Assembly: GCA_903926565.1 (NCBI GenBank) | Contig: CAIYJU010000002.1 | Coordinates: 1-43,545, forward strand | From: an uncultured Bacteroidales bacterium | GTDB lineage: Bacteria; Bacteroidota; Bacteroidia; Bacteroidales; FEN-979 | DNA: 43,545 bases | Direction of reading: 5' to 3' | Part shown: piece by piece, positions 9,542 through 43,545 of the stretch | How the letters are laid out: the number at the start of each line of letters is the position of its first letter | Position numbering within the stretch: the stretch's first letter is position 1 | The notes under the pieces: model-generated | Databases searched by the model: none | What the model saw: only the letters and a program-made list of their open reading frames with translations | What the model was told of the DNA's origin: nothing | Program-made: the position numbers and the translations under genes

Positions 9542-9546
9542 CAGTG

Positions 9547-14049: not shown

Positions 14050-14064
14050 TGAAAAGGCGGACAT

Positions 14065-14100: not shown

Positions 14101-14105
14101 ATAAT

Positions 14106-14233: not shown

Positions 14234-14242
14234 CAATCAACC

Positions 14243-21033: not shown

Positions 21034-21092
21034 GATCAAGCGTTGGAACATAACAATTCGCAAAGATATGGAAATAATCAAATTGCATCATT

Positions 21093-29382: not shown

Positions 29383-29439
29383 TTTCTGGTTTTGATTGGT
29401 AAAAGTACAAACAAATTGCCCCCAAAACCAAATCATCAT

Positions 29440-30303
29440 CTACCTTTTATAGGAGTATTTCCCATGGCATCCGGGGGCACATGATCCGCCGCTGTCGGAT
29501 GGCGTATAATTAAGGGAGAACGACCATTGGCCAAATGCAATTTTGTCAATAATCAGGAATTTGTTGTTTGATGCATGAACATCGTGACAAATAACACAGC
29601 TTCTTCCCCGCAGTCCTTTCAGATGGGCATTATGAAGGTTCTGCTCGCCGTTCCTGAAGCTGGTCGCTGTGGATGTTTTGGCTAAATCAAGTAAATCGCT
29701 GTCGTGACACTCCCAGCAAATCGCGTAATTTTCCTTTTTCCCGGAAGTATACATCTCCGTAGGAAAAGCGCTGATCAGCAAATAATTTTCGGTTGAAGCA
29801 TGTGGCTTGTGGCAGGAAGTGCATCCCCCGTTCAACGCGGGATGGATCACTTTGCTGGTGAGGAGCAACTGTTTGATGTTCCTGGTTTTTTTCCCGTTTA
29901 CATCCATCTCCCTGTCGTGGCAATTAATGCACAACGCCTTTTTGTCGGCGGATAACAACTTTTTAACATCCGACGAATGAGGGGAGTGGCAGTTCATGCA
30001 CTTCTTAGTATCTTTCACCACCTGGTGTACATTCCTCGTCGTATCAATTTCCTGCTTCACACCATCGTGACAGGTGTAGCACAATCCTGGAATGGAGTCG
30101 GTCAGGAACAATCCTTTTGGCGCCTTCTCCGGATGCTCTTTGATATTCACCCCATGGCACGTTTCGCACCCCTCCTTTGCCGGGGTATGCAAGATTGCCT
30201 TTTCGATCAGGTCGGAGTGACAATCAGTGCACTTAGGCTGATCTAAATAGCCAGCCAGCGTAATCACTGGTAGAAAAACGAATAAAATCAACCACTTTCT
30301 CAT
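29440..30303 (-). CDS. Nonahaem c-type cytochrome of the electron-conduit operon
   Basis: 287 residues from ATG 30303, with signal peptide MRKWLILFVFLPVITLAG. Eight CXXCH motifs are present (CTDCH, CETCH, CYTCH, CMNCH, CINCH, CTSCH, CWECH, CVICH) plus a terminal CX3CH (CAPGCHGK), so up to nine covalently bound haems. Pairs such as CMNCHSPH and CTSCHKPH are the doubled-CXXCH arrangement, where the second His of CHxPH can be the distal ligand. There is no lipobox, so it is periplasmic or passes to the surface. It starts 1 base after the stop of the outer-membrane barrel gene (30305), so translational coupling is likely. I infer that it hands electrons through or beyond the barrel; the direction of flow cannot be read from sequence. 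Confidence 0.85.
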   Translation of the reverse strand: MRKWLILFVFLPVITLAGYLDQPKCTDCHSDLIEKAILHTPAKEGCETCHGVNIKEHPEKAPKGLFLTDSIPGLCYTCHDGVKQEIDTTRNVHQVVKDTKKCMNCHSPHSSDVKKLLSADKKALCINCHDREMDVNGKKTRNIKQLLLTSKVIHPALNGGCTSCHKPHASTENYLLISAFPTEMYTSGKKENYAICWECHDSDLLDLAKTSTATSFRNGEQNLHNAHLKGLRGRSCVICHDVHASNNKFLIIDKIAFGQWSFSLNYTPSDSGGSCAPGCHGKYSYKR

Positions 30304-30304
30304 G

Positions 30305-32266
30305 TTAAAATTTTCTGGAAATCTGGATATAAGTTCCTTTGAAATTGATCTTCTCCCCGATATAGTTCCGTTTGTAAACCTCAATGCCTGCCGTCAGGTA
30401 TAACCGGTAAATGATGGAGGTAAATTCAAGCCTGGCTGTGAGCAGATCCAGGTCAATGCCCCGCCCCTGCTGCTTGCGGTACATCACATCGAGGTTGACC
30501 TTTGTTTGCCTGACGATTGCATACTCTACTTTTCCCGTAATATCCATATATTGCTGAACCCTGGCGGTAGGTTCATTCAGCATGGTGTAATTCTGGATGT
30601 TGCCATTGAGTACAAGGGTTAGTTTGTTTCTGAAACATTTCTGCATGTTTATATAAACCCTGACCATGTTGTAGGGGAGAATGGAGCTTCTGTAATCCTC
30701 ATACTCTGCACCCCCGTTGATCATATTATACCCGGCACGGAGTCCGACAATGTTCTGGGTGAAATAGTTCAGGGTAATGTAATCAGTGTTTTCAAGGTTT
30801 TTGTAATCCTGCAGAGCAAACCGGTAATAAACTTCAAGCCGCCCGTTAAGCATTGAATAGTTTACGGAAAAGTTATGATTGTCGGAATCATACTTATATG
30901 AACTTGGCTGTTTTGATGTATATTCTAGGAAAACAGTTCCTTCGTTGGGTATCTGCCCGCTGGGAATCCTGCGTATTTCAATATAATTTCCTCTTGCAAT
31001 CAGAAAATAGTCAAGATTGGGCTGATAAATAATTGTTCCGGTAACATCCTTAACTACAACTGTTTGCATGTCAATATATGGCCTTTTCAGCAAAACTATT
31101 TTGCTGTCGGAAAGAACATACTCCTCGTTGACAACCCTCAGGTCTACTGAATCACTATTGAATTTCTGCTGATAATGGAAATAACCGTATGACAACATCA
31201 GCTGCCCCCAGGGAATTTTTTTATTATAGCTGAAATCAAAGCCCGTTTTACTGTTATACATTGAATAGGCAGTATGGTTCAGCGTCATGTATTCAAAATA
31301 GAACCTTGAATTCAGACTTTTATAGAGCTGCTGAGTGAGCGTATTTGTTGAAACCTGCTGGATCAGCCTTCCAAAGTATTGGCTCGTATTGTTATAGTTG
31401 TAATTGGAAGTAAACGTGAAATTTAAAGGCAGTTTGATCATCATGTTCTCAATGCCCTGGAGGCTGTTGTATTTAAAGCTGCCATGTTGATTAATGTTCG
31501 AAATGGTCGTGTTGAAGGTGAATATTCTTTTTGCACCCAACCCTACAATGCTGTTAAAAAAAATCTCATCCGATGTATTTGTGGTATTGAAACTGTTTTC
31601 ATTTATGGATGAAGCGAGCCGATGGGTGTAAACAAATTTTTGCTTGTCATATATTGTGAAAGACTGCTCGGCCCTGCCTTCAAAAAGGGTCTGGTCAAGA
31701 TTCAGCTTCCGGCCTGTTTCTACTTCGGTCTGCTCTAACTTCTTACGGTAAAAATCAAACGTAAGCGGCAAATACTTGTTGCTGTATGACAATGACCCTC
31801 CAAGGTATTTGCTGGTTGTTCTGACATTGGTCATATTCTCACGTTTTGCATAGCTTTCATCATAGCTGGCAGAGGCAATTGCGTTGACCTTTTTGCCGTT
31901 GAAGAAAGAGGAAAGAACATTCAGTTTTTTAATTGTTCTCACCTCTGAAAAATCGGGCGACACCAGGTAGTTATCCCTGTTCGATTCGGGCATGTAGCCC
32001 GCACCAAGCTGAAGTTCACAAAAGTTTGGATGGAGTATGTATGTGGAAGCATTTAATAAAATTCCGCCTGAATAGTAATAGCTGTTCTGTTTTTCAAAAA
32101 TCTTATCCCCGCTTTGATCCTGCTCACGGTACGACCCGCGGAATATCAGTTCTCCTGAATAAGACCTGATACCCATAAAATGAAAAGACTCCGGTTTTTT
32201 CTGTGAAAAACCAGGCACGGTATGCATTAACAAAAAAGTCAGTAAAAGTAGTTTCCCTGCTTTCAA
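30305..32266 (-). CDS. Outer-membrane beta-barrel, likely porin of a porin-cytochrome conduit
   Basis: 653 residues. The start is TTG at 32266: no in-frame ATG lies nearby, and MKAGKLLLLTFLLMHTVPGFSQ is a proper signal peptide. The mature protein alternates polar and aromatic residues in many predicted strands (for example YFHYQQKFNSDSVDLRVV and FCELQLGAGYMP), is rich in Tyr, Asn and Phe, and ends in QISRKF with the terminal Phe used by the BAM machinery. There is no TonB plug and no POTRA. It lies inside an operon with pentahaem and nonahaem cytochromes, 11 bases after one and 1 base before the other. By analogy with MtrB/PioB and Geobacter Omb barrels it probably sheathes a cytochrome across the outer membrane. 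Similarity to those families was not tested. Confidence 0.7.
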   Translation of the reverse strand: MKAGKLLLLTFLLMHTVPGFSQKKPESFHFMGIRSYSGELIFRGSYREQDQSGDKIFEKQNSYYYSGGILLNASTYILHPNFCELQLGAGYMPESNRDNYLVSPDFSEVRTIKKLNVLSSFFNGKKVNAIASASYDESYAKRENMTNVRTTSKYLGGSLSYSNKYLPLTFDFYRKKLEQTEVETGRKLNLDQTLFEGRAEQSFTIYDKQKFVYTHRLASSINENSFNTTNTSDEIFFNSIVGLGAKRIFTFNTTISNINQHGSFKYNSLQGIENMMIKLPLNFTFTSNYNYNNTSQYFGRLIQQVSTNTLTQQLYKSLNSRFYFEYMTLNHTAYSMYNSKTGFDFSYNKKIPWGQLMLSYGYFHYQQKFNSDSVDLRVVNEEYVLSDSKIVLLKRPYIDMQTVVVKDVTGTIIYQPNLDYFLIARGNYIEIRRIPSGQIPNEGTVFLEYTSKQPSSYKYDSDNHNFSVNYSMLNGRLEVYYRFALQDYKNLENTDYITLNYFTQNIVGLRAGYNMINGGAEYEDYRSSILPYNMVRVYINMQKCFRNKLTLVLNGNIQNYTMLNEPTARVQQYMDITGKVEYAIVRQTKVNLDVMYRKQQGRGIDLDLLTARLEFTSIIYRLYLTAGIEVYKRNYIGEKINFKGTYIQISRKF

Positions 32267-32277
32267 CTTTATCGTAT

Positions 32278-32883
32278 TTATTTTAACATTGTCTGGTCAT
32301 CACCTCCGTGCGGATTGTGACATTCAGTGCAGTTTGCATCTGCAATATCCTTGTGCATCTCATTTTTCATCACCCGGCCTGAATCATGGCAATAAAGACA
32401 TAGCTTCGGGCCTTTGCGTATCAACAATTTATTGTCGTCGGCCAGGTGAGGGTTATGGCAGGCTGTGCAATATCCACTTGCAACCGGACCGTGTACTTTT
32501 TTATATTTCCTTCCAAAATCTTCATGGCATTGATAACAAATCTCCGTTTGAGCACTTTTGGGCTTACCAATGGCCGACTTGGCATGGCAAACATTGCATT
32601 GCTTTTCCTTATAGGGTGGATGAAACGTGGATTTTGCAATTTCATCCCGGCCGGGGATTGTTCCTTTCCCTGTAAATCTTGAGTTTTGAGTGACTGAATC
32701 ATGATTCTGAAGAGCCAGGCTATCTGCAGGATTTGGAACACCGTCGAAAAAGAAGGAGAGGGTCTTATAGTTATGTGTAGAGGAACATCCGGAGAAAATG
32801 AACAGCAAAATGATCAATAACCCAAAGAACAAAAGGAAGATTTGTCTGGCCGGCATCCGTCTGCGTATCATGTTATTGATCAT
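32278..32883 (-). CDS. Pentahaem c-type cytochrome lipoprotein
   Basis: 201 residues from ATG 32883; a second ATG at 32871 would also serve. A hydrophobic segment ends in the lipobox IFSGC with Cys33 as the lipidated residue. Five CXXCH motifs follow: CNVCH, CYQCH, CTACHNPH, CLYCH and CTECHNPH. No acidic surface-export signal follows the Cys, so it is more likely anchored to the outer membrane facing the periplasm. It probably receives electrons on the periplasmic side of the barrel encoded 11 bases downstream. The NHL lipoprotein gene ends 8 bases upstream. Confidence 0.85.
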   Translation of the reverse strand: MINNMIRRRMPARQIFLLFFGLLIILLFIFSGCSSTHNYKTLSFFFDGVPNPADSLALQNHDSVTQNSRFTGKGTIPGRDEIAKSTFHPPYKEKQCNVCHAKSAIGKPKSAQTEICYQCHEDFGRKYKKVHGPVASGYCTACHNPHLADDNKLLIRKGPKLCLYCHDSGRVMKNEMHKDIADANCTECHNPHGGDDQTMLK

Positions 32884-32891
32884 CAAATCTA

Positions 32892-33992
32892 TTAATGATT
32901 ATTTTTGAGTTTCAGCGCTTTCTGCTCAGGAGTAATGGGTTCTACTGCCCCATAGATATTCAGTTTGTCAGGTCCGAATTGATTTGTAACCAGGATCAGG
33001 TATTTCAGGTTAAAATCCGGATCTACATATTTTTGAAAGTATTTCAAATTATCATAATCAATGGTTACCTTGGCCGGGAGCCACATATCCCCGGGGCCTT
33101 TATAATTACCTCCAAAGAACATCAGCAACTTGTCGTTTTTGTCAAAGATCTGTACGTTCTCGAAACCGGCATCCACAACATACAAATTTGATTCACGGTC
33201 AACTGAAGTACCTTTCGGGCGGGTGAACTGGCCCGGGCCGTCACCATACGTCCCGATAGGCCCCAGATATTTACCATCCTTGCTGAATTTCTTTACGATA
33301 AAATCTCCAAAATCGGTCACATATACCTGGTTTCCTGTCACACAAAGATTTGTCGGAGAAAACAAATATCCTGCACTGTCGGTATTTACGCTGGGGAAAC
33401 TACTTAACTGCCTGTATGATGAATCATTACTGTAAACCATGACCTGATGGCCTGTCATATTGAGCACCCATATTTTACCATCAGAAACAGCAAGATCGGT
33501 CGGTTTGAAGTTCTCTTTCTCCCCGAAGCTGGAGATGTATTCTCTTTTTTCATTAAAAATCACGACCTGCTTCCTTTCAGCATCCGCCACGTATAAATAT
33601 CCCCGCTGGTCAATGAAACAGTTGAGCGGCGTCTTCAGCTCTCCCTTTCCTGAAGGGATAAATTCCGTAAACGTATTTTTTTCCAGGTCGATAATGTCGA
33701 ACCCATGTTTAAAGGTATCACAGATATATATTTTGCCGTTAAACATGGCAACACCATAGGGTTTACCAATCGTCTGAACGGCCTCAGCACCAAGGATGAA
33801 GCGCTTAAAACCCCCGCGCTTGCTTGTAATATCGCTGGAATTTGAAACTTTAAAGAGAAACTGGATCCTGGTTGTGTCCGGTGGCGGCGGATAGATCACC
33901 AGGTTTGGCGATGTACCGGTAGGATGAAGGCTGCGCGAACAGGAGAGAAAAAGAGAAACGGCAAAAAACAGTAAAAGAAATCTGAAGGTCAT
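32892..33992 (-). CDS. NHL-repeat six-bladed beta-propeller lipoprotein
   Basis: 366 residues, ATG at 33992. The lipobox LFLSC (Cys18) ends the signal peptide. A proline-rich linker with YPPPPDTTRIQFLFKV precedes about six NHL blades, for example GKPYGVAMFNGKIYICD, GYLYVADAERKQVVIFN, VYVTDFGDFIVKKFSKDG and NLYVVDAGFENVQIFD. This proline-rich opening followed by NHL blades is a pattern I know from NHL proteins encoded next to multihaem cytochromes in other phyla. It is first in the operon NHL, pentahaem lipoprotein, barrel, nonahaem protein, possibly followed by the C25 peptidase. It is probably a scaffold or assembly partner of the conduit; no enzyme function is apparent. Confidence 0.85.
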   Translation of the reverse strand: MTFRFLLLFFAVSLFLSCSRSLHPTGTSPNLVIYPPPPDTTRIQFLFKVSNSSDITSKRGGFKRFILGAEAVQTIGKPYGVAMFNGKIYICDTFKHGFDIIDLEKNTFTEFIPSGKGELKTPLNCFIDQRGYLYVADAERKQVVIFNEKREYISSFGEKENFKPTDLAVSDGKIWVLNMTGHQVMVYSNDSSYRQLSSFPSVNTDSAGYLFSPTNLCVTGNQVYVTDFGDFIVKKFSKDGKYLGPIGTYGDGPGQFTRPKGTSVDRESNLYVVDAGFENVQIFDKNDKLLMFFGGNYKGPGDMWLPAKVTIDYDNLKYFQKYVDPDFNLKYLILVTNQFGPDKLNIYGAVEPITPEQKALKLKNNH

Positions 33993-34048
33993 AGGTGAAA
34001 TTTTGTACGAAATAAGTAAAAATCGGCAACCCGGAATGAGTCATTGTT

Positions 34049-34064
34049 TGAGAAAATTGTGCCA
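34049..34064 (-). promoter_or_regulatory. Weak sigma-54-like promoter of the conduit operon
   Basis: The minus strand reads TGGCACAATTTTCTCA, with a perfect -24 TGGCAC but a poor -12 element (TCTCA instead of TTGCA). It lies 57 bases before the ATG at 33992, the same distance as better candidates of the locus. Confidence 0.3.
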
Positions 34065-34081
34065 TCCTGTATTATATGGCA

Positions 34082-34104
34082 AAGGGCGAAATAAATTCGC
34101 CCTT
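34082..34104 (-). terminator. Hairpin after the tetrahaem cytochrome gene
   Basis: AAGGGCGAA (34082-34090) pairs with TTCGCCCTT (34096-34104) around a 5-base loop, 37 bases past the stop at 34142. The T run after it is short. It separates the single-gene tetrahaem unit from the conduit operon. Confidence 0.65.
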
Positions 34105-34141
34105 CGACATAGAATTAGTTTTAAACGAATTACGCCACTCT

Positions 34142-34771
34142 CTATTTGTCATGGCATGTCAAACATAAAGCACTTGCTGCATTGCTTTTAATCAAAAGAT
34201 GTGCAGGAGTACCGGTAGCACCATTGTGTACATCGTGACATGAAGCACACTGCATTTTGCCGGCAAAGAGCATATCTGCGTTAATTGTTCCGCCAAGTCC
34301 TGACAAAGCAGTGCTGGGAGGGAATAAACTGCCGTCTGTTGTGGCCAACGCGTCATTGTAAGTAAAAGAGACAGGATGGTCGTTGCTCAGGTCGGTTCCA
34401 AGCAGAGCTGCACCGGTTGCATAAACATTGGGTGTTACAACACCGTTACCGCCAAAGTTATTGAGGGCAACACTTCCGTCATGGCAGCTAAGGCACAATT
34501 TTGAATTTCCGTCAGGCTGTCCAACAGTTGCATTTAATGTTGAAGAGGCATAGGTGCTGTAATTGGTTACTGCTGATAATGCGTGGTTCCATAAAGGTGC
34601 TTCTGCAAGCATGGCGCCGTTGTGAGGAATATGGCAAACTTTACAGATTTCTCCGGTTGTGTTCCATGTTTTGGATTTAAAATCATGGGCGGAATTGAGG
34701 ATTTGCGCATTGATGATCTGAGCAAACATGATCAACGCGATGGTCGTTAATAATAGGTTTAATTTTTTCAT
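34142..34771 (-). CDS. Tetrahaem c-type cytochrome, possible nanowire subunit
   Basis: 209 residues, ATG at 34771, with signal peptide MKKLNLLLTTIALIMFAQIINAQ. Four motifs are present: CKVCHIPHN, CLSCHDGSVA, CASCHDVH and CLTCH. Landmarks between them (APLWNH after haem 1, a Tyr-rich stretch, NDHPVSFTYNDAL before haem 3) recur in the N-terminal third of the dodecahaem protein encoded at 38009. Secreted tetrahaem cytochromes with CHxPH and PLWN landmarks bring to mind the OmcE type that polymerises into extracellular filaments; this is my recollection of the layout, not a tested match. The gene forms its own unit, with a sigma-54-like promoter upstream and a hairpin downstream, as expected for a highly expressed structural subunit. 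Confidence 0.85.
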   Translation of the reverse strand: MKKLNLLLTTIALIMFAQIINAQILNSAHDFKSKTWNTTGEICKVCHIPHNGAMLAEAPLWNHALSAVTNYSTYASSTLNATVGQPDGNSKLCLSCHDGSVALNNFGGNGVVTPNVYATGAALLGTDLSNDHPVSFTYNDALATTDGSLFPPSTALSGLGGTINADMLFAGKMQCASCHDVHNGATGTPAHLLIKSNAASALCLTCHDK

Positions 34772-34819
34772 CGTTTTTTGTCCTTTTTTGGTTAGTGAAT
34801 GTTTTCCGTGTTAGCCAAT

Positions 34820-34835
34820 TACAACAAGTGTGCCA
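34820..34835 (-). promoter_or_regulatory. Sigma-54-like promoter of the tetrahaem cytochrome gene
   Basis: The minus strand reads TGGCACACTTGTTGTA. The -24 TGGCAC is perfect, spacing is correct and the -12 element is TTGTA instead of TTGCA. It lies 49 bases upstream of the ATG at 34771. Confidence 0.5.
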
Positions 34836-34896
34836 TAAAATTCAGCATATTGTATGTCAACGTGTTATGATATTGTTCATAGGTTCTCATACTTAG

Positions 34897-34908
34897 CATG
34901 TGTTAGGG
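34897..34908 (-). promoter_or_regulatory. CCCTAACACATG motif
   Basis: This 12-mer is identical to the one at 14038-14049 upstream of a T9SS cargo gene, and its CCCTAACA core recurs at 696-703 and 18432-18439. Here it lies 126 bases upstream of the tetrahaem gene, above the sigma-54-like promoter. Confidence 0.3.
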
Positions 34909-35044
34909 ACTCCCTCAAACAACCATGATTAGCCAATAAATTCACAACATTGTTAATTAACAAACAGTCGCGGATTGTTGTCATCACATGTTATACTCTG
35001 ATAATATGCTATTTAACTGTTTTCACCTGTCACAATCCGACATT

Positions 35045-35081
35045 GGGTCATATGCCCCCATGGCGATGGGTGATATGCCCC
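35045..35081. promoter_or_regulatory. Candidate activator-binding sites: two GGGTSATATGCCCC repeats
   Basis: GGGTCATATGCCCC (35045-35058) and GGGTGATATGCCCC (35068-35081) are direct repeats whose starts are 23 bases apart, and each is an imperfect palindrome. They lie 210-262 bases upstream of the sigma-54-like promoter at 34820, a normal distance for enhancer sites of NtrC-type activators, and just past the stop codon of the response-regulator gene. Confidence 0.4.
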
Positions 35082-35088
35082 ATTGCGC

Positions 35089-36504
35089 TTAAAGCCGATA
35101 CTTTTTAATCTTATACCGCAGCGTATCCCTTGATATTTTCAACAACTTTGACGCTTTTGTCTGATTATTTTCAGCCATATTCAACGCCTGTTTGATAACC
35201 TGTTTTTCCAGTCCCGACAGCGAGAGGCCTTCTTCCGGGATCTCAATTTCAAAAGGAGATACCGGTTTTTCGCCGGGCGAAGGTCCTTCTGCAGCTTCAA
35301 CCCTCCTGGCTTCGGAATGTACGTTCAGATGAACTATTTCACCCGGGAGGCTGTCTGCCTGAAGTTCAGACATCGTTTCAAGAATGACAGCCCTTTCCAT
35401 CACGTTCCGCAATTCCCTGATATTCCCGGGCCAGTTGTAGTTTGTTAACAATCCGATGGCCGATTTATGTATGCCTTTTATACTCTTTTTGAACTGGTTG
35501 TTATAGTATTTTATAAAATAATCGGCCAGCAGCGGCACGTCCTCCCTGTGTTCCCGCAACGGAGGAAGGGTGATCTGGAATACTTTCAACCGGTAATAGA
35601 GATCCTCCCGGAACGTTTTTTCCTCCACCGCCTTCTTTAAATCCTTATTGGTTGCCGCGATAATCCTGATCTCCACCGGAATGTTGGCAGTACCTCCGAC
35701 CCGCCTGATCACCCTGTTTTCAAGAACGCCCAGCAGTTTGATCTGTGTTGACATATTGATTTCCCCGATTTCATCGAGAAATACAGTACCGCCATCAGCA
35801 ATTTCAAACAGTCCCTTCTTTTGTTGCTTCGCATCGGTAAAGGCACCTTTCTCATATCCGAAGAGTTCACTTTCCAGAAGTGTTTCGGGGAGAGAAGCAC
35901 AGTTAATGGTCACAAATGGTTTCGTGCTCTGGGAGCTTTCAGCATGTATCGCCCGCGCGAAAAGATCCTTCCCCGTGCCGCTCTCGCCCAGGAGTAAAAT
36001 GGTTGTCGTTTGTGTCCTTGCAATTTTTTTTGCCAGCTGAACGATCTGTTTTAAAACCAGCGACTCTCCTATAATGTTATCAAATGTTACTGTCGCCTTT
36101 TGCTGACGTCTCAGTACATGAACTTCACGGGTTATTTCAAGATTTTGCTTGACGGCATCCAGGATGACATCCACTTCTTCAAAAGTAAACGGTTTGTTAA
36201 TGTACTCTGAAGCCCCTGCTTTCATGGCACTTACCGCAGTATCTATCGAGCCAAAGGCGGTCATGAAAACAATGGCCGTATCTGCATCCAGGGATTTGAT
36301 TTTGTGAATCACCTCCAGCCCCTGCATTTGAGGCAGTTTATTGTCAGTGAAGATAATTTCAGGGTGATGCGATTCAAACAGTTTTATACCCTCTTCTCCG
36401 GTTTCTGCCGTAATAACCTTGTAACCCGCTGAACTCAGATGCTTTTCGAGCGACCAGCGGATCAACTTTTCGTCCTCGATAACGAGGATTTTCAACTGTT
36501 TCAT
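35089..36504 (-). CDS. NtrC-family sigma-54-dependent response regulator
   Basis: 471 residues, ATG at 36504. The receiver domain (1-120) has Asp54 as phospho-acceptor in IIFTDNKLP, Glu10/Asp11, Thr82 and Lys104. The AAA+ domain has Walker A GESGTGKD (173-180), Walker B GTVFLDE (239-245) and the sigma-54 contact loop as GAFTDA (220-225) instead of GAFTGA. Glycine-to-aspartate at this place is a known natural variant and the Thr needed for sigma-54 contact is kept. A Fis-type helix-turn-helix closes the protein (about 430-471, ATKASKLL-like NQTKASKLLKISRDTLRYKI). It should activate sigma-54 promoters when phosphorylated by the kinase encoded 14 bases upstream; the candidate promoters of this locus are the obvious targets, including that of its own operon. 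Confidence 0.95.
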   Translation of the reverse strand: MKQLKILVIEDEKLIRWSLEKHLSSAGYKVITAETGEEGIKLFESHHPEIIFTDNKLPQMQGLEVIHKIKSLDADTAIVFMTAFGSIDTAVSAMKAGASEYINKPFTFEEVDVILDAVKQNLEITREVHVLRRQQKATVTFDNIIGESLVLKQIVQLAKKIARTQTTTILLLGESGTGKDLFARAIHAESSQSTKPFVTINCASLPETLLESELFGYEKGAFTDAKQQKKGLFEIADGGTVFLDEIGEINMSTQIKLLGVLENRVIRRVGGTANIPVEIRIIAATNKDLKKAVEEKTFREDLYYRLKVFQITLPPLREHREDVPLLADYFIKYYNNQFKKSIKGIHKSAIGLLTNYNWPGNIRELRNVMERAVILETMSELQADSLPGEIVHLNVHSEARRVEAAEGPSPGEKPVSPFEIEIPEEGLSLSGLEKQVIKQALNMAENNQTKASKLLKISRDTLRYKIKKYRL

Positions 36505-36518
36505 GTAGTTAAAATTAG

Positions 36519-37985
36519 TTAAAATTGCCTGTTTCCGTTTTTAACAGGCAAGGTAATATAGAAGGTACATCCCGTGTCGCTATTGTTCTCAAACCAGATT
36601 TCTCCGTTATGTTTCAGGATGATGTCTTTCGAGATTGCCAGACCGAGGCCGGTGCCTTTGGTATGGGTCGTGAAAAAAGGTTTAAAGACATCATCCTTAA
36701 CCTCATCCGGAATGCCGGCTCCGTTATCCCTCACCGAGATAAGCAGGAAATGCCGGGTTTTGTCATACCTGGTCGAGAATAAAACAACACCGCTTTCATG
36801 TATTGCCTTTACGGCGTTAAAGCTAAGGTTAAGCAGTACATTTTCCAACAGTTCATGATCAAAAAGAACCATCGGGATATCTTCCTGAAGATCAAGATCA
36901 AAGCGGATGGATTTATCATGCGATTGATGCCGCAAAAAGAAAATCATCGATTTTATTACCTCATTCATGTCGCCCTCATGCAACCGGATATCCTGTGATC
37001 TGGAATACTTTAACAAGTTGGAAATGGCCTGTTCCACACGATTTGCCTGGCGCTGAATCTCTTCCAGGATCGGCTTGTTCTGATCTTCCTTCAGGTCGGC
37101 GATAATAATTTCCATGGCCCGGGCGATACCCGTGATCGGGTTCCTGATTTCATGTGCGATGCGTGCCGACATCTCTCCGATGGTTGCCAGTTTCTGAGAA
37201 TTCTCCAGCTCCTTCTGATGATAGGAGTCCAGCTCCTTCCTGGTTTTAACAAAGGTGTCCAGCATCTCATTGAAGTTTCTCCCGAGCGTGCCCAGTTCCT
37301 TCACTTCAGGGATGGCCAGTCTCATCTCCAGCTTCCCCTGGTTTATCTGTGCAATCGTTGTCCGGAAGTGGTTCAGCGACCGCCTGATGAAGCGGTAATG
37401 CAGGAACGCCACAAGGGCAAATATGCCAGCCAGCAGAAAAACGGTATAAAGAAAACTGAATTTCCAGGTATAGGAGAGTATTTTTTCCGTGCCATGATTT
37501 GACAAATCCAGGATGATCAGTCCCAGGGTTTTTTGTGCAGGATTATGGCATGGGTAGCAGGAAGGGGTGTTTTGCATACGGATGAATACCCTGTTAAATG
37601 GGGTGGCGCATTTTTCGTATGTCTTGATGGTGATATCCTTCTCCTCTGAAAACAATTTGCTGAAGTTTTGGGTGTCGCTGTCGAGGGGACGATAGTTTGC
37701 CGGGTATATCACTTTTGCCTTCTCATTAACAAGGTAGCTCCTCAGCACATCCTTGTTCCGTTCCATGTTTTTTAAAATCGGGCGAATGATGGTGCCGTCA
37801 TGCTGTCTGATAGAAAAATAATACTGATCGCGCAACAGGTTAATATGTTCGATATTCTCCTCCGAATTTGATAATAATTTATCTTTCAGAAGATAATTGT
37901 ATATTGAAAAAGCGATGACCGAATACACAGTTATCCCGATGACCAGCGTTGCAATAATTTTAACCCGAAAAGATAACCATTTCAT
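36519..37985 (-). CDS. Sensor histidine kinase with c-type haem motif in its periplasmic domain
   Basis: 488 residues, ATG at 37985. Transmembrane helix 1 spans about 9-31 and helix 2 about 176-198, enclosing a 145-residue periplasmic domain. Within it, NTPSCYPCHNPAQKTLG holds a CXXCH motif at 143-147, so a covalently bound haem is likely; Cys126 lies nearby. A HAMP linker (about 199-255) leads to the HisKA domain with His278 in IAHEIRNP, and an ATPase domain with N box LLNLSFNAVKAI, DNGAGIPDEV and GTGLGLAI. It is a complete transmitter. The haem suggests sensing of redox state, oxygen, nitric oxide or the electron load of the cytochromes. It sits between the dodecahaem cytochrome gene (23 bases upstream) and the response regulator (14 bases downstream), in one operon. 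Confidence 0.92.
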   Translation of the reverse strand: MKWLSFRVKIIATLVIGITVYSVIAFSIYNYLLKDKLLSNSEENIEHINLLRDQYYFSIRQHDGTIIRPILKNMERNKDVLRSYLVNEKAKVIYPANYRPLDSDTQNFSKLFSEEKDITIKTYEKCATPFNRVFIRMQNTPSCYPCHNPAQKTLGLIILDLSNHGTEKILSYTWKFSFLYTVFLLAGIFALVAFLHYRFIRRSLNHFRTTIAQINQGKLEMRLAIPEVKELGTLGRNFNEMLDTFVKTRKELDSYHQKELENSQKLATIGEMSARIAHEIRNPITGIARAMEIIIADLKEDQNKPILEEIQRQANRVEQAISNLLKYSRSQDIRLHEGDMNEVIKSMIFFLRHQSHDKSIRFDLDLQEDIPMVLFDHELLENVLLNLSFNAVKAIHESGVVLFSTRYDKTRHFLLISVRDNGAGIPDEVKDDVFKPFFTTHTKGTGLGLAISKDIILKHNGEIWFENNSDTGCTFYITLPVKNGNRQF

Positions 37986-38008
37986 AGTTTAACGCGTAAG
38001 CAATATTA

Positions 38009-39706
38009 CTAATAACTCAGGGGATTATGATTTTTCCCATGGCATGTCAGGTAACACTGGCCATGATTGCTGCCCATCCCCACGAATTTTAACTGTCCGC
38101 CTGAGCTGGGGGTGACCACTCCGGTCCGGAAATTTATCAGGTTGCTGTTATTCGAAATGTTTCCCTGCGTCATGCTTATTCCATGCGGATCATGGCAGGT
38201 GTTGCAGGGAGCCCGGACCTCTGATTGCAGGTGCTTATTGTGCTGTTTAAAGGAAACATCGCTTAATATGGAAGCGCGGCTGTGACAGCTGTAGCACAGT
38301 GCATAGGCCGATGCTGATTCTGTTGTTCCGGTCGAAACAGTACCTCCGTCATTGGTAATGTTCTGCAATTTTAATATGTGGGGGTAAATTGATCCGTGGG
38401 GTGCCGGTGAAGTACCTGAGCCATCACCTGCATGGCAGCTGGTACAATACATGATACTGGAAGCCGACCAGGGAGAAATCAGGCTGGGCACCGAGGTGTT
38501 TTTACCGATTGCCGCCACCGGGTGATATGACGGATTTGCCGGGGCAAATTCGAGGAGAAGGTTGTTCTGGACAATAACCCTGGATGTTGCTGCAGGAGGA
38601 GAACCGGCACTGCCTGCATGACACCTGTAGCATACTTCATAAGCGAAGGTTGCCGAACTGACCGCGGTACCGGTTTGGGAAACACCCTTCACCCCCGCCA
38701 GCGCACCACCGGCATAAGGCGCAACCGCAGACCGGCTGTTTGACGCATGCGGATCGTGGCAGTCAACACATTCAACATGCATGTTTGTAAACAGCTGAGC
38801 CGGCTCATTGGGAGTGTGGATATTCAGGTAGTTGCCTATATTGTGGCGGTAACTCTTGCTGAATTCAGCCGCAACATTTTTCGCCGCCACATTCCCGTTA
38901 TGGCAATCGAGGCAGTTATTCTCCTCCTTCTGGTACTTCAGCAACATCACATCTGATCCGGAATTATGGGGATTGTGACAACTTTCGCACCCGTTCTGAG
39001 CCACCGTGGTGCTTGACGGCGGGGTATATGGCCACGGATCAGGAAGCACGCCATTCCACGTTTTAACGGAGGTGTTGTGGCTGCCTGAATTCCAGTTGTT
39101 GCGCTGATGACATGCATTACACAATTCCGAATTCCTTGTATCGGCTACGAGAAAATCAGGAAATAAGTTCTTATGGGGATCGTGGCAGGATGTACATTGA
39201 ACCTTCTCATTTTCAAGTGAAACCGGCGGAAGGATCGCGGCCGGGGGCTTTAGCTGGCCATCGGCCATGGCAAGTGCTGAATTATAGAGGAAGGAGACCG
39301 GATGATCATTACGGAGATTGGTTGAAAGGTTGCTGAGTCCGGCAGGCATTGTTGTGATCCCCGATTGAAAACCGGTGACAGTTGACCTGCTTAATATGCT
39401 CCCAAGGGCGATTGTTCCGTCGTGGCATGAAAGGCAAAGCATCGAAGTGCCATCGGGTTGCCCGGGCAAAGCCTGCATGGTGGCGCTTTTATAAAGAGTG
39501 TAGGTAACCCCGGGATCCCGCCTGTTCCACAGCGGCGATCGCGGCAGGGCTGTGTGCGGGGTATGACAAAAAAGGCAAATTTCCGTCTCTCCGGCAGACC
39601 TCATTCCTCCCGGCCCGTTCACTGAAAGGTTATGCTTTGAATTAACAATGGACTGGGCATAAATCAGGCCCGGAAACGAAATTAATATGATCAGTATGTA
39701 GCGCAT
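38009..39706 (-). CDS. Dodecahaem c-type cytochrome
   Basis: 565 residues from ATG 39706, with signal peptide MRYILIILISFPGLIYAQ. Eleven CXXCH motifs (CLFCH, CLSCH, CTSCH, CNACH, CESCH, CLDCH, CVDCH, CYRCH, CTSCH, CYSCH, CNTCH) and a final CX3CH (CYLTCHGKNH) give up to twelve haems. The first four occupy a module matching the tetrahaem protein at 34142 (CHTPH, PLWNR, LCLSCHDGTIA, NDHPVSFLYN, CTSCHDPH). Later haems are widely spaced, with many CHDPH/CHNPH doubled-type sites. There is no lipobox and no T9SS domain. It is probably extracellular or conduit-associated. It starts 10 bases after the NHL gene, and the haem-motif histidine kinase follows after 23 bases. Confidence 0.88.
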   Translation of the reverse strand: MRYILIILISFPGLIYAQSIVNSKHNLSVNGPGGMRSAGETEICLFCHTPHTALPRSPLWNRRDPGVTYTLYKSATMQALPGQPDGTSMLCLSCHDGTIALGSILSRSTVTGFQSGITTMPAGLSNLSTNLRNDHPVSFLYNSALAMADGQLKPPAAILPPVSLENEKVQCTSCHDPHKNLFPDFLVADTRNSELCNACHQRNNWNSGSHNTSVKTWNGVLPDPWPYTPPSSTTVAQNGCESCHNPHNSGSDVMLLKYQKEENNCLDCHNGNVAAKNVAAEFSKSYRHNIGNYLNIHTPNEPAQLFTNMHVECVDCHDPHASNSRSAVAPYAGGALAGVKGVSQTGTAVSSATFAYEVCYRCHAGSAGSPPAATSRVIVQNNLLLEFAPANPSYHPVAAIGKNTSVPSLISPWSASSIMYCTSCHAGDGSGTSPAPHGSIYPHILKLQNITNDGGTVSTGTTESASAYALCYSCHSRASILSDVSFKQHNKHLQSEVRAPCNTCHDPHGISMTQGNISNNSNLINFRTGVVTPSSGGQLKFVGMGSNHGQCYLTCHGKNHNPLSY

Positions 39707-39716
39707 TGCAAAGTGT

Positions 39717-40754
39717 TCAATGTTGTTTATTACTATATACCAGTTGAAAAACCTGGACCCTTGAATTGTAAGAATCTGCGACATAAATAAAGTCGTCCTT
39801 GTCAATATATATTCCTGATGGCATCCAAAACTCAGCTTCTCCCTGGCCCTGGGAGCCCAGGCTGATTAAATACTTTCCTGTCAGATCAAACGCCTGAACC
39901 GTATGAAACAGGGCATCCACAATGTATATGTTCCCATGAGAATCTGTCGCAACACCCTTTGGCCTTGCGAAATACCCTGAAGCATCGCCCTGCTGGCCGA
40001 AAACTGACACAATCCCGCCGGTACTTTTCAACACCTGGATTCTGAAATTCATCGCATCAACGATGTAAACCAGGCCTGCGCCGTCAATATGGATATGGGT
40101 AGGGTAGTTAAACTCACCCGGTGCCGTACCCCTCGACCCGATACGTTTTACGATTGCACCTTCCCTGTTCAACACGGTTATCCGGTGGGCATTTGTTTCA
40201 ACAACCCATATTTCACCTGTGATGGCTGACCAGGCAATTCCGGTGGGCTGCCCCAGCAACAGGGTATCGTTTACAATCTGTACCGTTTTTTTTTCAGGTG
40301 CAACCCGATAAATTTTCCCGGCATGTGAATCAGTTACAAACATGCTGTTGGATGGCCCGGCACAAATTCCTATTAACGATGAGAAATCGAATTGAGCCTT
40401 TTGCAAAAAGTGGGGGATATCACCCACCCCCTCTTTTACACCAAAAATCGACATCACCTCCTGGTCCAGCACCCAAAAGTTTTCCTTATCAACCGCAAAA
40501 ACATTCACCGGGCGGATTAATGCAGGCATTTTTTTGCCCAGAAAAATGGCATTGAAGCGATTTCGAAAACCATGGGCCTTCTGTTTATTATCTGCTGAAG
40601 GCCATTGTTTTACCCATTTCACCTGTGGAATTTCAACCAACTTTGGGTCAATTAACCCAGCTGGTTCCTGACCTTTAACGGCAGTGAACAGTGCGATCAA
40701 TATCAGGCACTGGAATACCGGGTTTTTCAGATGGTTCAGGATACTGGATTTCAT
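39717..40754 (-). CDS. Secreted NHL-repeat beta-propeller protein, first gene of the sensor operon
   Basis: 345 residues from ATG 40754; the signal segment is NPVFQCLILIALFTAVKGQ, without a lipobox. About six NHL blades follow: SMFVTDSHAGKIYRVAP, EIWVVETNAHRITVLN, LVYIVDAMNFRIQVLK, NIYIVDALFHTVQAFD and FIYVADSYNSRVQVFQ. A Trp-rich stretch (VKWVKQWPSADNKQKA) stands before the propeller, where the other NHL protein has its Pro-rich linker. NHL propellers bind proteins or other polymers. Its place directly before the dodecahaem gene, 10 bases away, suggests it helps assemble or anchor that cytochrome. A sigma-54-like promoter lies 61 bases upstream. Confidence 0.85.
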   Translation of the reverse strand: MKSSILNHLKNPVFQCLILIALFTAVKGQEPAGLIDPKLVEIPQVKWVKQWPSADNKQKAHGFRNRFNAIFLGKKMPALIRPVNVFAVDKENFWVLDQEVMSIFGVKEGVGDIPHFLQKAQFDFSSLIGICAGPSNSMFVTDSHAGKIYRVAPEKKTVQIVNDTLLLGQPTGIAWSAITGEIWVVETNAHRITVLNREGAIVKRIGSRGTAPGEFNYPTHIHIDGAGLVYIVDAMNFRIQVLKSTGGIVSVFGQQGDASGYFARPKGVATDSHGNIYIVDALFHTVQAFDLTGKYLISLGSQGQGEAEFWMPSGIYIDKDDFIYVADSYNSRVQVFQLVYSNKQH

Positions 40755-40814
40755 GGAGAAAAACAAGAGGATACAAAGTTAGGAGGATTATTCGTGTTAC
40801 TGTTCCTATGCCTT

Positions 40815-40830
40815 AGCAAATTTCGTGCTA
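40815..40830 (-). promoter_or_regulatory. Sigma-54-like promoter of the NHL-cytochrome-sensor operon
   Basis: The minus strand reads TAGCACGAAATTTGCT. Relative to TGGCACGNNNNTTGCW only the second base differs, and the -12 TTGCT is perfect. It lies 61 bases upstream of the ATG at 40754. If used, the response regulator of this operon would activate its own transcription. Confidence 0.5.
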
Positions 40831-40888
40831 TAAATTTGGAGCCCTCGTTAAACTCTCATTATAAGACCATTACGAGACAACTCCCCAA

Positions 40889-40922
40889 ATCTCTGGCAGA
40901 TTGAATTTATGGCAGATCTCTG
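40889..40922. promoter_or_regulatory. Repeated ATCTCTG/GGCAGA units in the divergent promoter region
   Basis: ATCTCTG occurs at 40889-40895 and 40916-40922, and GGCAGA at 40895-40900 and 40911-40916. They lie between the two divergent sigma-54-like promoters (40815 and 41082) and could be activator sites, but they do not resemble the repeats at 35045. The rest of 40831-41081 shows no gene. Confidence 0.2.
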
Positions 40923-41081
40923 TTATCCGGCATTGCGTCTCCTTGAGTACCTGACAAGCGTGTTTTTAACCATTCAACGTGCCGCCCCGAATAAAAGACT
41001 TTTAATATCCGCATCTTATAAGTTTGATATACCGTATCTTAACTTCCATTGATGCTAATTTTAAGATGGGAATAATAATGG

Positions 41082-41097
41082 TGGCATAATTGTTGCA
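41082..41097 (+). promoter_or_regulatory. Sigma-54 promoter of the c554-like cytochrome gene
   Basis: TGGCATAATTGTTGCA matches the sigma-54 consensus with GG and GC at exact spacing (TGGCA, then TTGCA). It lies 67 bases upstream of the ATG at 41164. It is the best of the four such sites in the locus. Confidence 0.65.
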
Positions 41098-41163
41098 AAA
41101 GGGGTGCTGTTCTTTATAAATAAGGTGAGAAATAACAAAGTATTTACAAATTCAAAAAGCACT

Positions 41164-41682
41164 ATGAAAAAATCAGCACTTGTTATTGGTTTGTTTTTTA
41201 TCGGGTTTTTACTCCATTCCCAGGATTTCAAGTATGTCGGCGCACAGAAATGTAAAATGTGCCATAATTCAGAAGAGAAGGGAAAACAGTTTACAAAGTG
41301 GACTGAAAGTTTGCATTCAAAAGCATTCGCAACACTGCAGGGCCCGGAAGCCATCAAGTATGGCAAAGAACACAACATTGCTGATCCTTCCAAAGAACCA
41401 AAATGTCTCAAATGCCATGCAACCGCTGCCGGCGTTGATGCAACTTTGATTGCAGGGCTGACGATGGAAGAGGGTGTTTCCTGTGAAACTTGTCACGGAC
41501 CAGGAAGCGCTTATAAATCCATTCCTGTCATGAAAGACCAGGCACAGTCCATAAAGAACGGGCTCATCGTTCCAACAGAGGCTCTTTGCAAAAAATGCCA
41601 CAATCCGGAAAGTCCGAATTACAAAACATTTGATTTTGCAACCTTTTCAGCCAAAATAGCTCATCCCAACCCAAAAAAATAG
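41164..41682 (+). CDS. Tetrahaem cytochrome, c554-like
   Basis: 172 residues from ATG 41164, with signal peptide MKKSALVIGLFFIGFLLHSQ. The mature protein begins FKYVGAQKCKMCHNSEEKGKQ, the usual opening of cytochrome c554-family proteins, followed by WTESLHSKAFATL. Haem motifs are CKMCH, CLKCH, CETCHGPGSAY and CKKCH. In nitrifiers c554 takes electrons from hydroxylamine oxidoreductase. In Bacteroidota such small proteins serve as periplasmic electron shuttles of unknown partner. Here it is transcribed divergently from the NHL-dodecahaem-sensor operon, so it is a candidate soluble carrier between inner membrane and conduit. The next gene follows on the same strand after 84 bases. Confidence 0.85.
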   Translation: MKKSALVIGLFFIGFLLHSQDFKYVGAQKCKMCHNSEEKGKQFTKWTESLHSKAFATLQGPEAIKYGKEHNIADPSKEPKCLKCHATAAGVDATLIAGLTMEEGVSCETCHGPGSAYKSIPVMKDQAQSIKNGLIVPTEALCKKCHNPESPNYKTFDFATFSAKIAHPNPKK

Positions 41683-41766
41683 TCCAACGTAATCTGCATG
41701 ATTTTGCCTTTGCAGAATCAGAGTTGATAAACACGGGGATTGTATCATCACTTACAAAAGAATGTC

Positions 41767-43545
41767 ATGGTTAAAATTTACAAACTAGTAGTTGTTCTGA
41801 GCATTCTGGTTGTTTGCTTTAACGACAATTATGGCCAGGGGCCTCCCGCCGGTTTTGCCTTTTCGGCAACAATAACGGATAGCCTGGCAACACCGGTGCG
41901 AATGGCCATCGACAACATGGACAATATTTATGTAACTGATGCGTACGATAAGCTGATCAGGAAATACAATTCAGCCGGGAGTTTTACCGGGTCGATCATG
42001 ACGGGAGGTTCCCCGATATCCATCGCCATCAATGATGCGAATACCCTCTTTTTCGGAGATGGAGTCACGGGGAAAATTTTCAGGGTCAATTCAAATGGAA
42101 CAACCGCTGAAATATATTCCGGAGCCGCTTTCCCCTCTTCCATGGTGTTTGGTTCAAACGGGAATCTCTACATTTCCGACAGCAAGCTGAAGCGGATCAC
42201 GGTCATCAATATTTCGGGGAATCTAATCCGAACCATTGGTGAAGGTGTCTTAACCTATCCTACAGGAATTACTTTTGACAAAAAGAACAACAGAATTCTG
42301 GTTGCAGAACACGGAGGTATCGGCGATGGTTTTACTCCTGTCGTCAAGATAAGAATTTATGACCTGGCAGGCAACCTGATCACCAGCTTCGGTTCCAATG
42401 GAAACGGAGACGGAAAGTTTTACAGAATCCAGGGGCTTGCAGTTGGCCGGTGTGGTGAAATCTATGTTCCGGAACCTTACCAGGGCAATGTCAGTGTGTT
42501 TAATGAAAATACCATTTTTGCCACCAGGTTTGCCCATTACGGAGATAGCATCAGCCAGTTGCGGGTCCCGCTCGATATCGCAATCAATTCAGCGGATAAA
42601 ATTTTCATAACTGCAGAGAATAATGGTAAAATTGAAATTTTCAACATAAACTACCTGTTGCCGACCTCAGCGATCAACTGCGGAAATAAAACCATTTGCG
42701 CAGGGACAACGACCCAGATTCCGGTTCATTTTACGGGGAGAGCCCCATGGACTTTCACCTACACCATCGATGGCACCAATCCTGTGACCATAAGCTCCAC
42801 CAGCGACAACCCCTACCTGATAACCGCATCAGCCCCGGGAAATTACCAGGTAACCGCCTTGTCTGATTCAAGCCTGGCCGGAACCTGCTTTTCGGGCAAT
42901 TCGGTCATCACTGTCAACAACACGATTCCAACATCAACGATATCAGTGCAAAATGCAGCATTCTGTTCCGGTCAGTCCGTTGATATTCCCGTTGTACTTA
43001 CCGGGATAGCCCCATGGACCTTCACCTACACAAACAATGGCGCCAGCCCGCAAACTGTCAGCAACATATTGGCAAGTCCCTACCTGCTGAATATCTCCGC
43101 TCCCGGCGATTACCAGGTCACCGCACTTTCGGGGGCAGGATGTCCGGGGTCAACTTTTACCGGAAACACAATTATTACAGAAAACCCATTGCCCACCGCT
43201 GCAATAGCCACCGGAAACACCAGTATCTGCGAAGGGGATTCAACCTCAATCGCCATCGCATTTACCGGTAATGCTCCATGGTCGTTCACCTATTACATCA
43301 ATGAGGATAATGCAGTTACCGTTTATAACATTACTGACAATCCATATCTGCTGAATGTAACCCAGGCTGGCAAGTACCGGATTACCCATGTGCAGGATGC
43401 TTTTTGCATTGGCAATGCCTCTGCCGGAAGCCATGAAATAAGTATCAGGTCGTTGCCGACATCCAACATAATTTCCGCAAACTCGTCTGTTTGCGTCGGC
43501 AACAGTACAACCATCATCATTGATTTTACGGGAACAGCGCCATGG
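41767..43545 (+). CDS. NHL beta-propeller fused to Ig-like repeats (runs off right edge)
   Basis: The frame is open from ATG 41767 to the window end, 593 residues so far. The signal peptide is MVKIYKLVVVLSILVVCFND plus NYGQ. An NHL propeller (about 25-300) has IYVTDAYDKLIRKYNSAG, LYISDSKLKRITVINISG and IRIYDLAGNLITSFGSNG. From about 300 on come tandem 88-89 residue Ig-like repeats, each with two Cys, an FTG.APWTFTY core and NPYLL..APGNYQV. Three are complete and a fourth begins. The PW cores start at 42745, 43012, 43276 and 43540. Such repeats usually form stalks of T9SS surface proteins; the C-terminus is outside the window. It may be cotranscribed with the c554-like gene, and no promoter is evident in the 84-base gap. 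Confidence 0.8.
   Translation, partial: MVKIYKLVVVLSILVVCFNDNYGQGPPAGFAFSATITDSLATPVRMAIDNMDNIYVTDAYDKLIRKYNSAGSFTGSIMTGGSPISIAINDANTLFFGDGVTGKIFRVNSNGTTAEIYSGAAFPSSMVFGSNGNLYISDSKLKRITVINISGNLIRTIGEGVLTYPTGITFDKKNNRILVAEHGGIGDGFTPVVKIRIYDLAGNLITSFGSNGNGDGKFYRIQGLAVGRCGEIYVPEPYQGNVSVFNENTIFATRFAHYGDSISQLRVPLDIAINSADKIFITAENNGKIEIFNINYLLPTSAINCGNKTICAGTTTQIPVHFTGRAPWTFTYTIDGTNPVTISSTSDNPYLITASAPGNYQVTALSDSSLAGTCFSGNSVITVNNTIPTSTISVQNAAFCSGQSVDIPVVLTGIAPWTFTYTNNGASPQTVSNILASPYLLNISAPGDYQVTALSGAGCPGSTFTGNTIITENPLPTAAIATGNTSICEGDSTSIAIAFTGNAPWSFTYYINEDNAVTVYNITDNPYLLNVTQAGKYRITHVQDAFCIGNASAGSHEISIRSLPTSNIISANSSVCVGNSTTIIIDFTGTAPW

Follow-up and report, generated by a model that had tools for sequence, protein, structure and literature searches.

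The window analysed here is an entire contig (C2; 43,545 bases) of an uncultured Bacteroidales bacterium whose genome comprises 4.69 Mb in 210 contigs. Nine genes on its minus strand, at 29440-40766 and running from a nonahaem cytochrome gene to that of an NHL beta-propeller (NHL2), probably constitute a cassette for extracellular electron transfer that resembles the undecahaem electron transfer (Uet) cluster and links a cytochrome of OmcE type, which may form filaments, with a conduit in the outer membrane. That the locus exchanges electrons across the outer membrane we regard as very likely. The genes and control elements of the cassette are as follows (signal peptides and lipoboxes of the window proteins were assigned by eye).

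29440-30303 (-): terminal nonahaem cytochrome (8 CXXCH + 1 CX3CH), secreted as judged by eye; variable slot after the barrel
30305-32266 (-): outer-membrane beta-barrel, 653 aa, C-terminal Phe (structure model)
32278-32883 (-): pentahaem lipoprotein (5 motifs), similar to part of MtrA (match to 6r2q_A)
32892-33992 (-): NHL beta-propeller lipoprotein (NHL1)
34142-34771 (-): OmcE-type tetrahaem cytochrome (4 motifs), candidate nanowire subunit (matches to 7tfs_A and 9yuq_N)
34820-34835 (-): sigma-54-type -24/-12 site, TGGCACACTTGTTGTA, beginning 64 nt before the tetrahaem start codon
35045-35058: candidate enhancer half, GGG-N8-CCC inverted repeat, GGGGCATATGACCC (minus strand)
35068-35081: candidate enhancer half, GGG-N8-CCC inverted repeat, GGGGCATATCACCC (minus strand), 23 bp from the other half
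35089-36504 (-): NtrC-type response regulator with receiver, sigma-54 activation domain and Fis helix-turn-helix
36519-37985 (-): histidine kinase with a c-type haem motif in its sensory region
38009-39706 (-): dodecahaem protein (11 CXXCH + 1 CX3CH), UetJ-like by composition, with an OmcE-like N-terminal domain
39717-40766 (-): NHL beta-propeller (NHL2)
40815-40830 (-): weaker sigma-54-like site before NHL2 (13/15 points, 64 nt)

A fifth cytochrome, a c554-type tetrahaem protein, is encoded next to the cassette on the plus strand. A sequence-only reading of this DNA had counted 34 haem motifs in five secreted or lipid-anchored cytochromes (9, 5, 4, 12 and 4), which is correct only when two CX3CH motifs, one in the nonahaem and one in the dodecahaem protein, are added to 32 CXXCH; the kinase carries one further CXXCH (aa 143-147) beyond the 34. 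The two NHL propellers, the barrel ending in Phe and the two-component system that it had placed among the cytochromes were all found there, and its operon gaps of 8, 11 and 1 bases hold with ATG starts at 32883 and 30303. Six-frame translation of the whole window gave 42 CXXCH motifs, only seven of them outside the cytochrome region, and the 15 genome-wide matches to PF09699 were confined to the window contig and one other (C60), so that the clustering of cytochromes is not a matter of chance. Three cytochrome c assembly matches were present in the same genome.

The OmcE-type tetrahaem protein and the dodecahaem protein

The tetrahaem protein matched the OmcE nanowire subunit (7tfs_A) over its full length (E 5.8e-24), as it did 9yuq_N, annotated as 'putative multiheme cytochrome c' (E 3.8e-26). 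Its AlphaFold model had a single PDB match by Foldseek, again 7tfs (E 7.2e-8, TM-scores 0.51/0.53, 33% identity). We aligned 41 tetrahaem sequences, chosen as mostly full-length copies, and found the four CXXCH motifs invariant, together with His 29, 50, 132 and 182 (eight invariant His when motif and distal residues are combined), while His 63 was nearly so; there are thus four distal ligands for four haems. The subunits of OmcE are described as linked through a haem that is ligated by the neighbouring subunit (PMC9473688, PMC12954529). The window protein has about an even prospect of polymerising into a wire.

The dodecahaem protein begins with an OmcE-like domain in which four matching histidines (H25, H51, H135 and H178) were kept in all of 48 loci, chosen for 11 CXXCH and one CX3CH and including duplicates. 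The same 48 sequences share 15 invariant His outside the motifs for 12 haems, three above the requirement of bis-His ligation; these three spare residues might serve as haem ligands in a partner protein. That the dodecahaem protein docks the wire is a doubtful proposition at present. Among proteins counted as UetJ-like, a term that we applied only at 481-719 aa with 10-13 motifs, 44 of 48 had exactly 11 CXXCH and one CX3CH. In both the nonahaem and the dodecahaem protein the single CX3CH lies near the C-terminus and is followed by Gly-Lys, and most of the multihaem genes that directly follow the barrel likewise have one CX3CH. The sequence-only reading had missed the OmcE type of the tetrahaem protein and the OmcE-like domain of the dodecahaem protein, as well as the CXXCH of the kinase and the sigma-54 site and GGG-N8-CCC repeats described below.

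The barrel and its potential occupants

The barrel had no sequence match in Pfam, NCBIfam or the PDB. Its model was predicted with a pLDDT (predicted local distance difference test) of 90.5 and a pTM (predicted TM-score) of 0.70, and contains about 28-30 strands (29 of at least 11 residues outside the insert, by reading), with short turns on both sides and one inserted domain at residues ~386-456. The inserted domain carries D419 and R433, two of four columns invariant in 44 barrels (likewise chosen, mostly full-length copies). Among the best 50 of 813 Foldseek matches, the highest TM-score (0.43/0.43) was to 6r2q_B of the Mtr complex. We take chain B of 6r2q to be MtrB and chain A to be MtrA, and the pentahaem lipoprotein matched the latter with E 1.6e-14; the match of the nonahaem protein to 6r2q_A was weak (E 0.0019). 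The structure prediction that the sequence-only reading had proposed as a check returned a large barrel whose highest TM-score among those 50 matches, to the Mtr chain, was only 0.43. The barrel model and the pentahaem match together suit a cytochrome-holding barrel without proving one, and the pentahaem lipoprotein is a candidate for either barrel occupant or periplasmic donor.

Conservation of the cassette

Barrel and OmcE-like gene were each sought in 61 genomes (the bacterium's own and 60 relatives). The barrel was present in six, and the OmcE-like gene in exactly these six. The five relatives keep the nine-gene order. In G012 and G016 some cassette genes fall into two frames each, and the nonahaem slot of G022 holds a 15-motif protein. 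Across relatives the slot after the barrel ranges from 9 to 26 motifs.

A phylum sample of 395 genomes gave a full-length barrel in two (the own genome and G220), both with an OmcE-like gene, and seven other matches that were short; an OmcE-like match was found in seven, five of them full length or nearly so. Searched independently, the full-length barrel therefore never occurred without an OmcE-like gene (seven genomes: the six of 61 and G220). G220, related at phylum level only, keeps seven of the genes, but no kinase and regulator stand between them. In three further genomes (G107, G232 and G315) an OmcE-like gene is accompanied by propellers, a regulator, a 10-haem protein and a protein of ~560 aa; the haem-motif kinase is found in G107 and G315, and the G232 stretch stops at the regulator. 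The ~560-aa proteins were considered as counterparts of the barrel and rejected: the profile match (probability 90, E 1.5e-6) spans only 100 N-terminal columns, so they are at most distantly related to the barrel. A partial barrel match in G208, which lacks the cassette, was likewise rejected. None of 19 pattern matches on viral contigs encodes a relative of the barrel.

Scanning named genomes with ten OmcE-like proteins returned at least 548 relatives, from which 79 distinct loci were retained (L038 is G013 and L081 is G022; L049, L088 and L092 share one metagenome-assembled genome, MAG). Their labels include Bacteroidota, Chlorobiota, Calditrichota, Ignavibacteria, Marinimicrobia, Desulfobacterota and Beta/Gammaproteobacteria, as well as Verrucomicrobiota, Sumerlaeota, Planctomycetota, Nitrospirota, Gemmatimonadota and others. 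All but a few are MAGs; two bear the names of strains in culture, both Bacteroidota: Carboxylicivirga marina N1Y132 (L108) and Aestuariivivens marinum MT3-5-12 (L109). An NHL gene lay within 700 bp of the OmcE-like gene on the same strand in 59 of the 69 loci with at least 1.5 kb of downstream sequence, and a barrel lay within 4 kb downstream in 56 of the 64 with at least 3.5 kb (anywhere in the locus, 60/64). In the 59 loci with a downstream barrel, the slot between the tetrahaem gene and the barrel held a 5-motif (26), 9-motif (8) or 7-motif (1) cytochrome, two small ones (5), or no cytochrome of 100 aa or more (19). Loci of the Bacteroidota-Calditrichota-type clade usually have one multihaem gene directly before the barrel and another directly after it.

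In a tree of barrels (67 rows, quick method; seven end branches are long and unsure) this clade stood apart from the proteobacterial and desulfobacterial barrels with an SH-aLRT (Shimodaira-Hasegawa-like approximate likelihood ratio test) support of 100, and contained Bacteroidota, Calditrichota, Chlorobiota, Ignavibacteriota, KSB1 and one MAG labelled Deferribacteres. The tree follows phylum labels for the most part and the mixed spots may be mis-binned or paralogous; we do not claim transfer between phyla. Pairwise identities co-varied between barrel and dodecahaem protein (Spearman 0.69), tetrahaem and dodecahaem protein (0.50) and barrel and tetrahaem protein (0.46), values that are uncorrected for species relatedness.

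Regulation

The elements of an NtrC/sigma-54 circuit are all present by sequence: a sigma-54-interacting regulator, paired upstream repeats, which sit just past the regulator stop codon, and a -24/-12 site. It is highly probable that the kinase/regulator pair regulates through sigma-54. In an alignment of 27 kinases selected for a CXXCH, all 27 shared C143, C146 and H147 of the window kinase; without such selection, the motif occurred in 20 of 23 kinases of more than 300 aa in the named loci, the three lacking it being from Proteobacteria-titled loci.

Of 24 loci that have the regulator, 22 showed a sigma-54 site at 40-130 nt upstream of the OmcE-like gene, vs 6 of 41 that lack it (Fisher 6e-10; control distance windows gave p 1.0 and 0.81), at a cut-off of 12/15 that was set after seeing the first results and with loci of less than 330 nt upstream dropped. 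The two misses were L051 and L088, and two of the six matches lacking a regulator have one that is cut or split (L061 and L011). GGG-N8-CCC, a motif derived from the tested sequences themselves, occurred within 400 nt upstream in 16 of 27 loci with the regulator vs 6 of 38 without (loci with less than 400 nt dropped). Spacers of N9, N5 and N11 were not enriched; N7 was (11/27 vs 4/38, p 0.0054). Because related sequences are not independent, these p-values overstate the case.

Close pairs of the repeat numbered 21, in 20 entries, across 1.55 Mb of loci with duplicates included, or in 17 genomes once three duplicate entries were removed; 20 of the pairs lay upstream of the OmcE-like gene, and the remaining one, in L041, stood before the NHL2-type gene of its cassette. 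Forty shuffles of the window, preserving single-base composition only, gave no close pair. For the weaker site upstream of NHL2, we found counterparts in G012 (13 points, 62 nt) and G022 (12 points, 48 nt), and nothing comparable within 330 nt in G013 or G015.

Comparison with known systems

By composition the closest known system is Uet, described as a cluster of Ca. Tenderia electrophaga and Gallionella (PMC10734462). The likeness, which is one of composition, extends to an extracellular tetrahaem cytochrome (UetA), a barrel (UetC), two NHL proteins (UetHI) and a protein of 11-12 motifs (UetJ) (PMC10734462). Beta- and Gammaproteobacterial loci with the order tetrahaem-NHL-barrel-NHL-dodecahaem, whose barrel is homologous to that of the window, would by their composition be Uet itself. 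The differences are that none of the ten window proteins scanned has the Pfam domain of a peptidyl-prolyl isomerase (UetB), and that the window, with cytochromes of 9, 5, 4, 12 and 4 motifs, lacks the trihaem UetDEG, for which the genome elsewhere was not searched. The window adds the MtrA-like pentahaem lipoprotein, the terminal multihaem protein and the haem-kinase/NtrC pair, extra genes that appear to mark a Uet variant of Bacteroidota and their relatives.

The tetrahaem protein shares with the OmcE nanowire of Geobacter sulfurreducens (7tfs) full-length homology, four haems, the pattern of CXXCH and distal His, and the fold, but it is 33% identical in the Foldseek alignment and is encoded with a barrel. 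To MtrCAB the window is linked by the resemblance of the pentahaem protein to chain A and of the barrel, within the matches stated above, to chain B. Unlike MtrB, the barrel has no MtrB-family sequence match in Pfam or the PDB; the pentahaem and nonahaem proteins scored 50.4 and 65.6 bits against the DmsE/MtrA model TIGR03508, whose cut-off is 192.2, and the window has in addition an OmcE-like gene, propellers and a dodecahaem protein.

In the Osc operon of the nanowire cytochrome OmcS, OscE, OscF and OscG are beta-propellers. The operon resembles our cassette in setting companion genes, with proposed roles in folding and secretion, beside a nanowire cytochrome (PMC13194489), but OmcS and OmcE are reported to share neither sequence nor fold (PMC9473688), and the parallel is an analogy by description. 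So is that with Oet of syntrophic sulfate reducers, where a porin, periplasmic and extracellular cytochromes and filament-type cytochromes form a cassette whose named wires are OmcX- and OmcS-like, not OmcE-like (PMC10553843). PCC3 was rejected as the closest system: its multihaem proteins are given median counts of 34 haems (extracellular) and 21 (periplasmic) (PMC5566968), and the largest cytochrome of the window has 12. By the features tested, the cassette is outside both Mtr and PCC3.

The sequence-only reading had proposed a conduit after the manner of MtrCAB or Omb-Omc, in a lineage where such systems are little described. A Bacteroidota electron transfer conduit is well supported by our results, but Uet is closer by composition than either of those models. 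Neither of the outcomes that the reading had named as refuting it appeared: gene order is kept in relatives, and the barrel model is large, with its top TM-score among the best 50 of 813 matches going to the Mtr chain. That such systems are little described in this lineage fits the literature found: a limited search of the open literature turned up no description of the cassette in Bacteroidota.

Proposed function and alternatives

From the computed homologies, conserved gene order, barrel model and recurring cis-elements, we infer the following electron flow, barrel occupancy, polymerization, role of the propellers and binding of the regulator to the repeats. Periplasmic electrons would pass to a haem chain inside the large outer-membrane barrel, held there by the MtrA-like pentahaem lipoprotein, the dodecahaem protein or both, and from there to the surface cytochromes, namely the nonahaem protein and the OmcE-type tetrahaem protein, the latter probably polymerizing into a wire. 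The two NHL propellers would most likely aid export or assembly of cytochromes, by analogy with the secretion role proposed for OscE/F/G. The haem-binding kinase and NtrC-type regulator would switch production through the tandem enhancer repeats and the sigma-54 promoter before the OmcE-like gene.

Several observations weigh against this proposal. The cassette is known here from genes alone, with no filament, current or protein observed, and no inner-membrane quinol dehydrogenase was seen in it, although the genome was not searched for one. The TM-score to 6r2q_B, at 0.43, is low, and the Foldseek results include proteins of other function (TonB receptors, ushers and LptD), several with better E-values. 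The tetrahaem model is of modest confidence (pLDDT 70.6), its distal His 29 is absent from one divergent copy of ten (L037, with a start chosen by us), and Geobacter is reported not to require OmcE for current or for the reduction of Fe(III) oxide (PMC13194489). Because the OmcE-like gene was the bait for the named loci, it is constant in them by construction; eight of the 64 have no downstream barrel, and four (L056, L089, L090 and L105) have none in the locus. Finally, three phylum members have OmcE-like genes accompanied only by the ~560-aa protein, at most a distant relative of the barrel.

It was reasonable to consider, with the sequence-only reading, that the locus is a plain porin-cytochrome conduit. 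The barrel would then hold the nonahaem or pentahaem protein, and the homologue of OmcE would be a diffusible or surface-bound monomer that forms no wire. The MtrA-like pentahaem protein and the position of 6r2q_B at the head of the 50 best matches by TM-score would fit, homology to OmcE is no proof of polymerization, and UetA is described simply as an extracellular tetrahaem cytochrome (PMC10734462). On the other hand, no full-length barrel was found apart from an OmcE-like gene in the six of 61 genomes or G220, the slot between tetrahaem gene and barrel lacks any cytochrome reading frame of at least 100 aa in 19 of 59 loci, and the haem ligand pattern of the tetrahaem protein is retained; we hold such a conduit to be rather unlikely. 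The same 19 loci are consistent with a barrel and propellers that serve as a secretion or assembly pore for a cytochrome wire and conduct no electrons, as are the size of the barrel, its short turns, the 59 of 69 loci in which an NHL gene adjoins the OmcE-like one and the secretion role proposed for OscE/F/G (PMC13194489). This is improbable in our estimation, given multihaem genes that usually flank the barrel directly in the Bacteroidota-Calditrichota-type clade and the lack of a chaperone-usher domain among the Pfam matches of the ten proteins.

Electrons might also move inward, from Fe(II), minerals or partner cells, as proposed for Uet, which comes from cathode-oxidizing Tenderiales and is discussed for iron oxidizers (PMC10734462, PMC13386937). 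Nothing in the window decides the direction; the nearest hosts are Bacteroidales MAGs, which are not known for lithoautotrophy, and an uptake system seems an unlikely identity for the cassette. Far less credible is a set of cytochromes for periplasmic storage or for detoxification of nitrogen oxides or metals, with a substrate porin as chance neighbour: the c554-type protein adjoining the cassette would suit it, but barrel, propellers and cytochromes stay together across many phylum labels, and what Pfam returned for the ten proteins was electron-transfer haem domains, with no nitrite-reductase catalytic domain among them.

A more ambitious extension of the Uet-like cassette, which we offer tentatively and think somewhat less likely to be right than wrong, is that OmcE-type nanowires are not a speciality of Geobacter but the working end of an old and widespread outer-membrane machine. 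The barrel, the two propellers and the dodecahaem protein would form its docking station, the OmcE-like N-terminal domain of the dodecahaem protein would cap or nucleate the wire, and in Bacteroidota and relatives the haem-sensing kinase would start wire production through sigma-54. Were this machine real, UetA of electroautotrophs would be a nanowire subunit as well. According to a 2025 review (PMC12307469), little is known of how cytochrome nanowires are put together, exported and connected to the cell. These questions become testable with a compact conserved cassette in which genes for a barrel, an MtrA-like protein and an OmcE-type cytochrome lie side by side. The combination of OmcE-like gene, NHL gene and barrel would also be a simple marker for electron exchange in little-studied groups, and the kinase/regulator pair is a candidate redox switch.

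Neighbouring genes

Past the cassette the plus strand carries the following.

41082-41097 (+): sigma-54-type site, TGGCATAATTGTTGCA, full score, beginning 82 nt before the c554 gene
41164-41682 (+): cytochrome c554-type tetrahaem protein (4 motifs), accessory
41740-43545 (+): NHL + Ig-like protein, truncated by the contig end

Of four same-genus relatives, one has the c554 gene next to the cassette. A site near-identical to the sigma-54-type one of the window, scoring 14/15, stands upstream of c554 in G013; in G012 such a site lies before the NHL/Ig gene.

The locus seems to extend past the window, since the gene at 41740 is cut and its counterpart in three relatives (G012, G013 and G015) is followed by a giant cytochrome of 1771-2307 aa with 19 CXXCH, one CX3CH and a long stalk, PKD-like by Pfam in G013. 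Giant cytochromes were located at G000:C60:1-5865 (L135), L136:4755-11633, L137:4801-10116 and L138:3708-10631; in the own genome the gene runs off the start of contig C60 and has PorP/SprF downstream of it. In G013 the giant cytochrome gene is followed by a small gene and then by one for PorP/SprF (type IX secretion); farther on, ResB/CcsA, for cytochrome assembly, is encoded. By eye, similar-looking frames follow it in G012, and the G015 stretch has no PorP/SprF-like frame. In G013 a type A sorting domain is present on the NHL/Ig protein; neither Pfam nor NCBIfam gave a sorting domain on the giant cytochrome of that genome. The giant cytochrome is possibly a surface protein secreted by the type IX route.

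On the other side, a C25-type (gingipain/PorU-like) peptidase gene at 27310-29439 (-) adjoins the nonahaem gene and is kept in G012, G013 and G015 (64-72% identity). By analogy with OzpA, which serves OmcZ, its product is a possible maturation protease. By eye, the peptidase and an endonuclease-like protein (19177-21081, -) share a short C-terminal domain, PGG.LTINP....V.G.V, perhaps a sorting signal. Three very large secreted proteins are encoded at 1117-18175 (-), with C-termini that by eye resemble type IX sorting domains.

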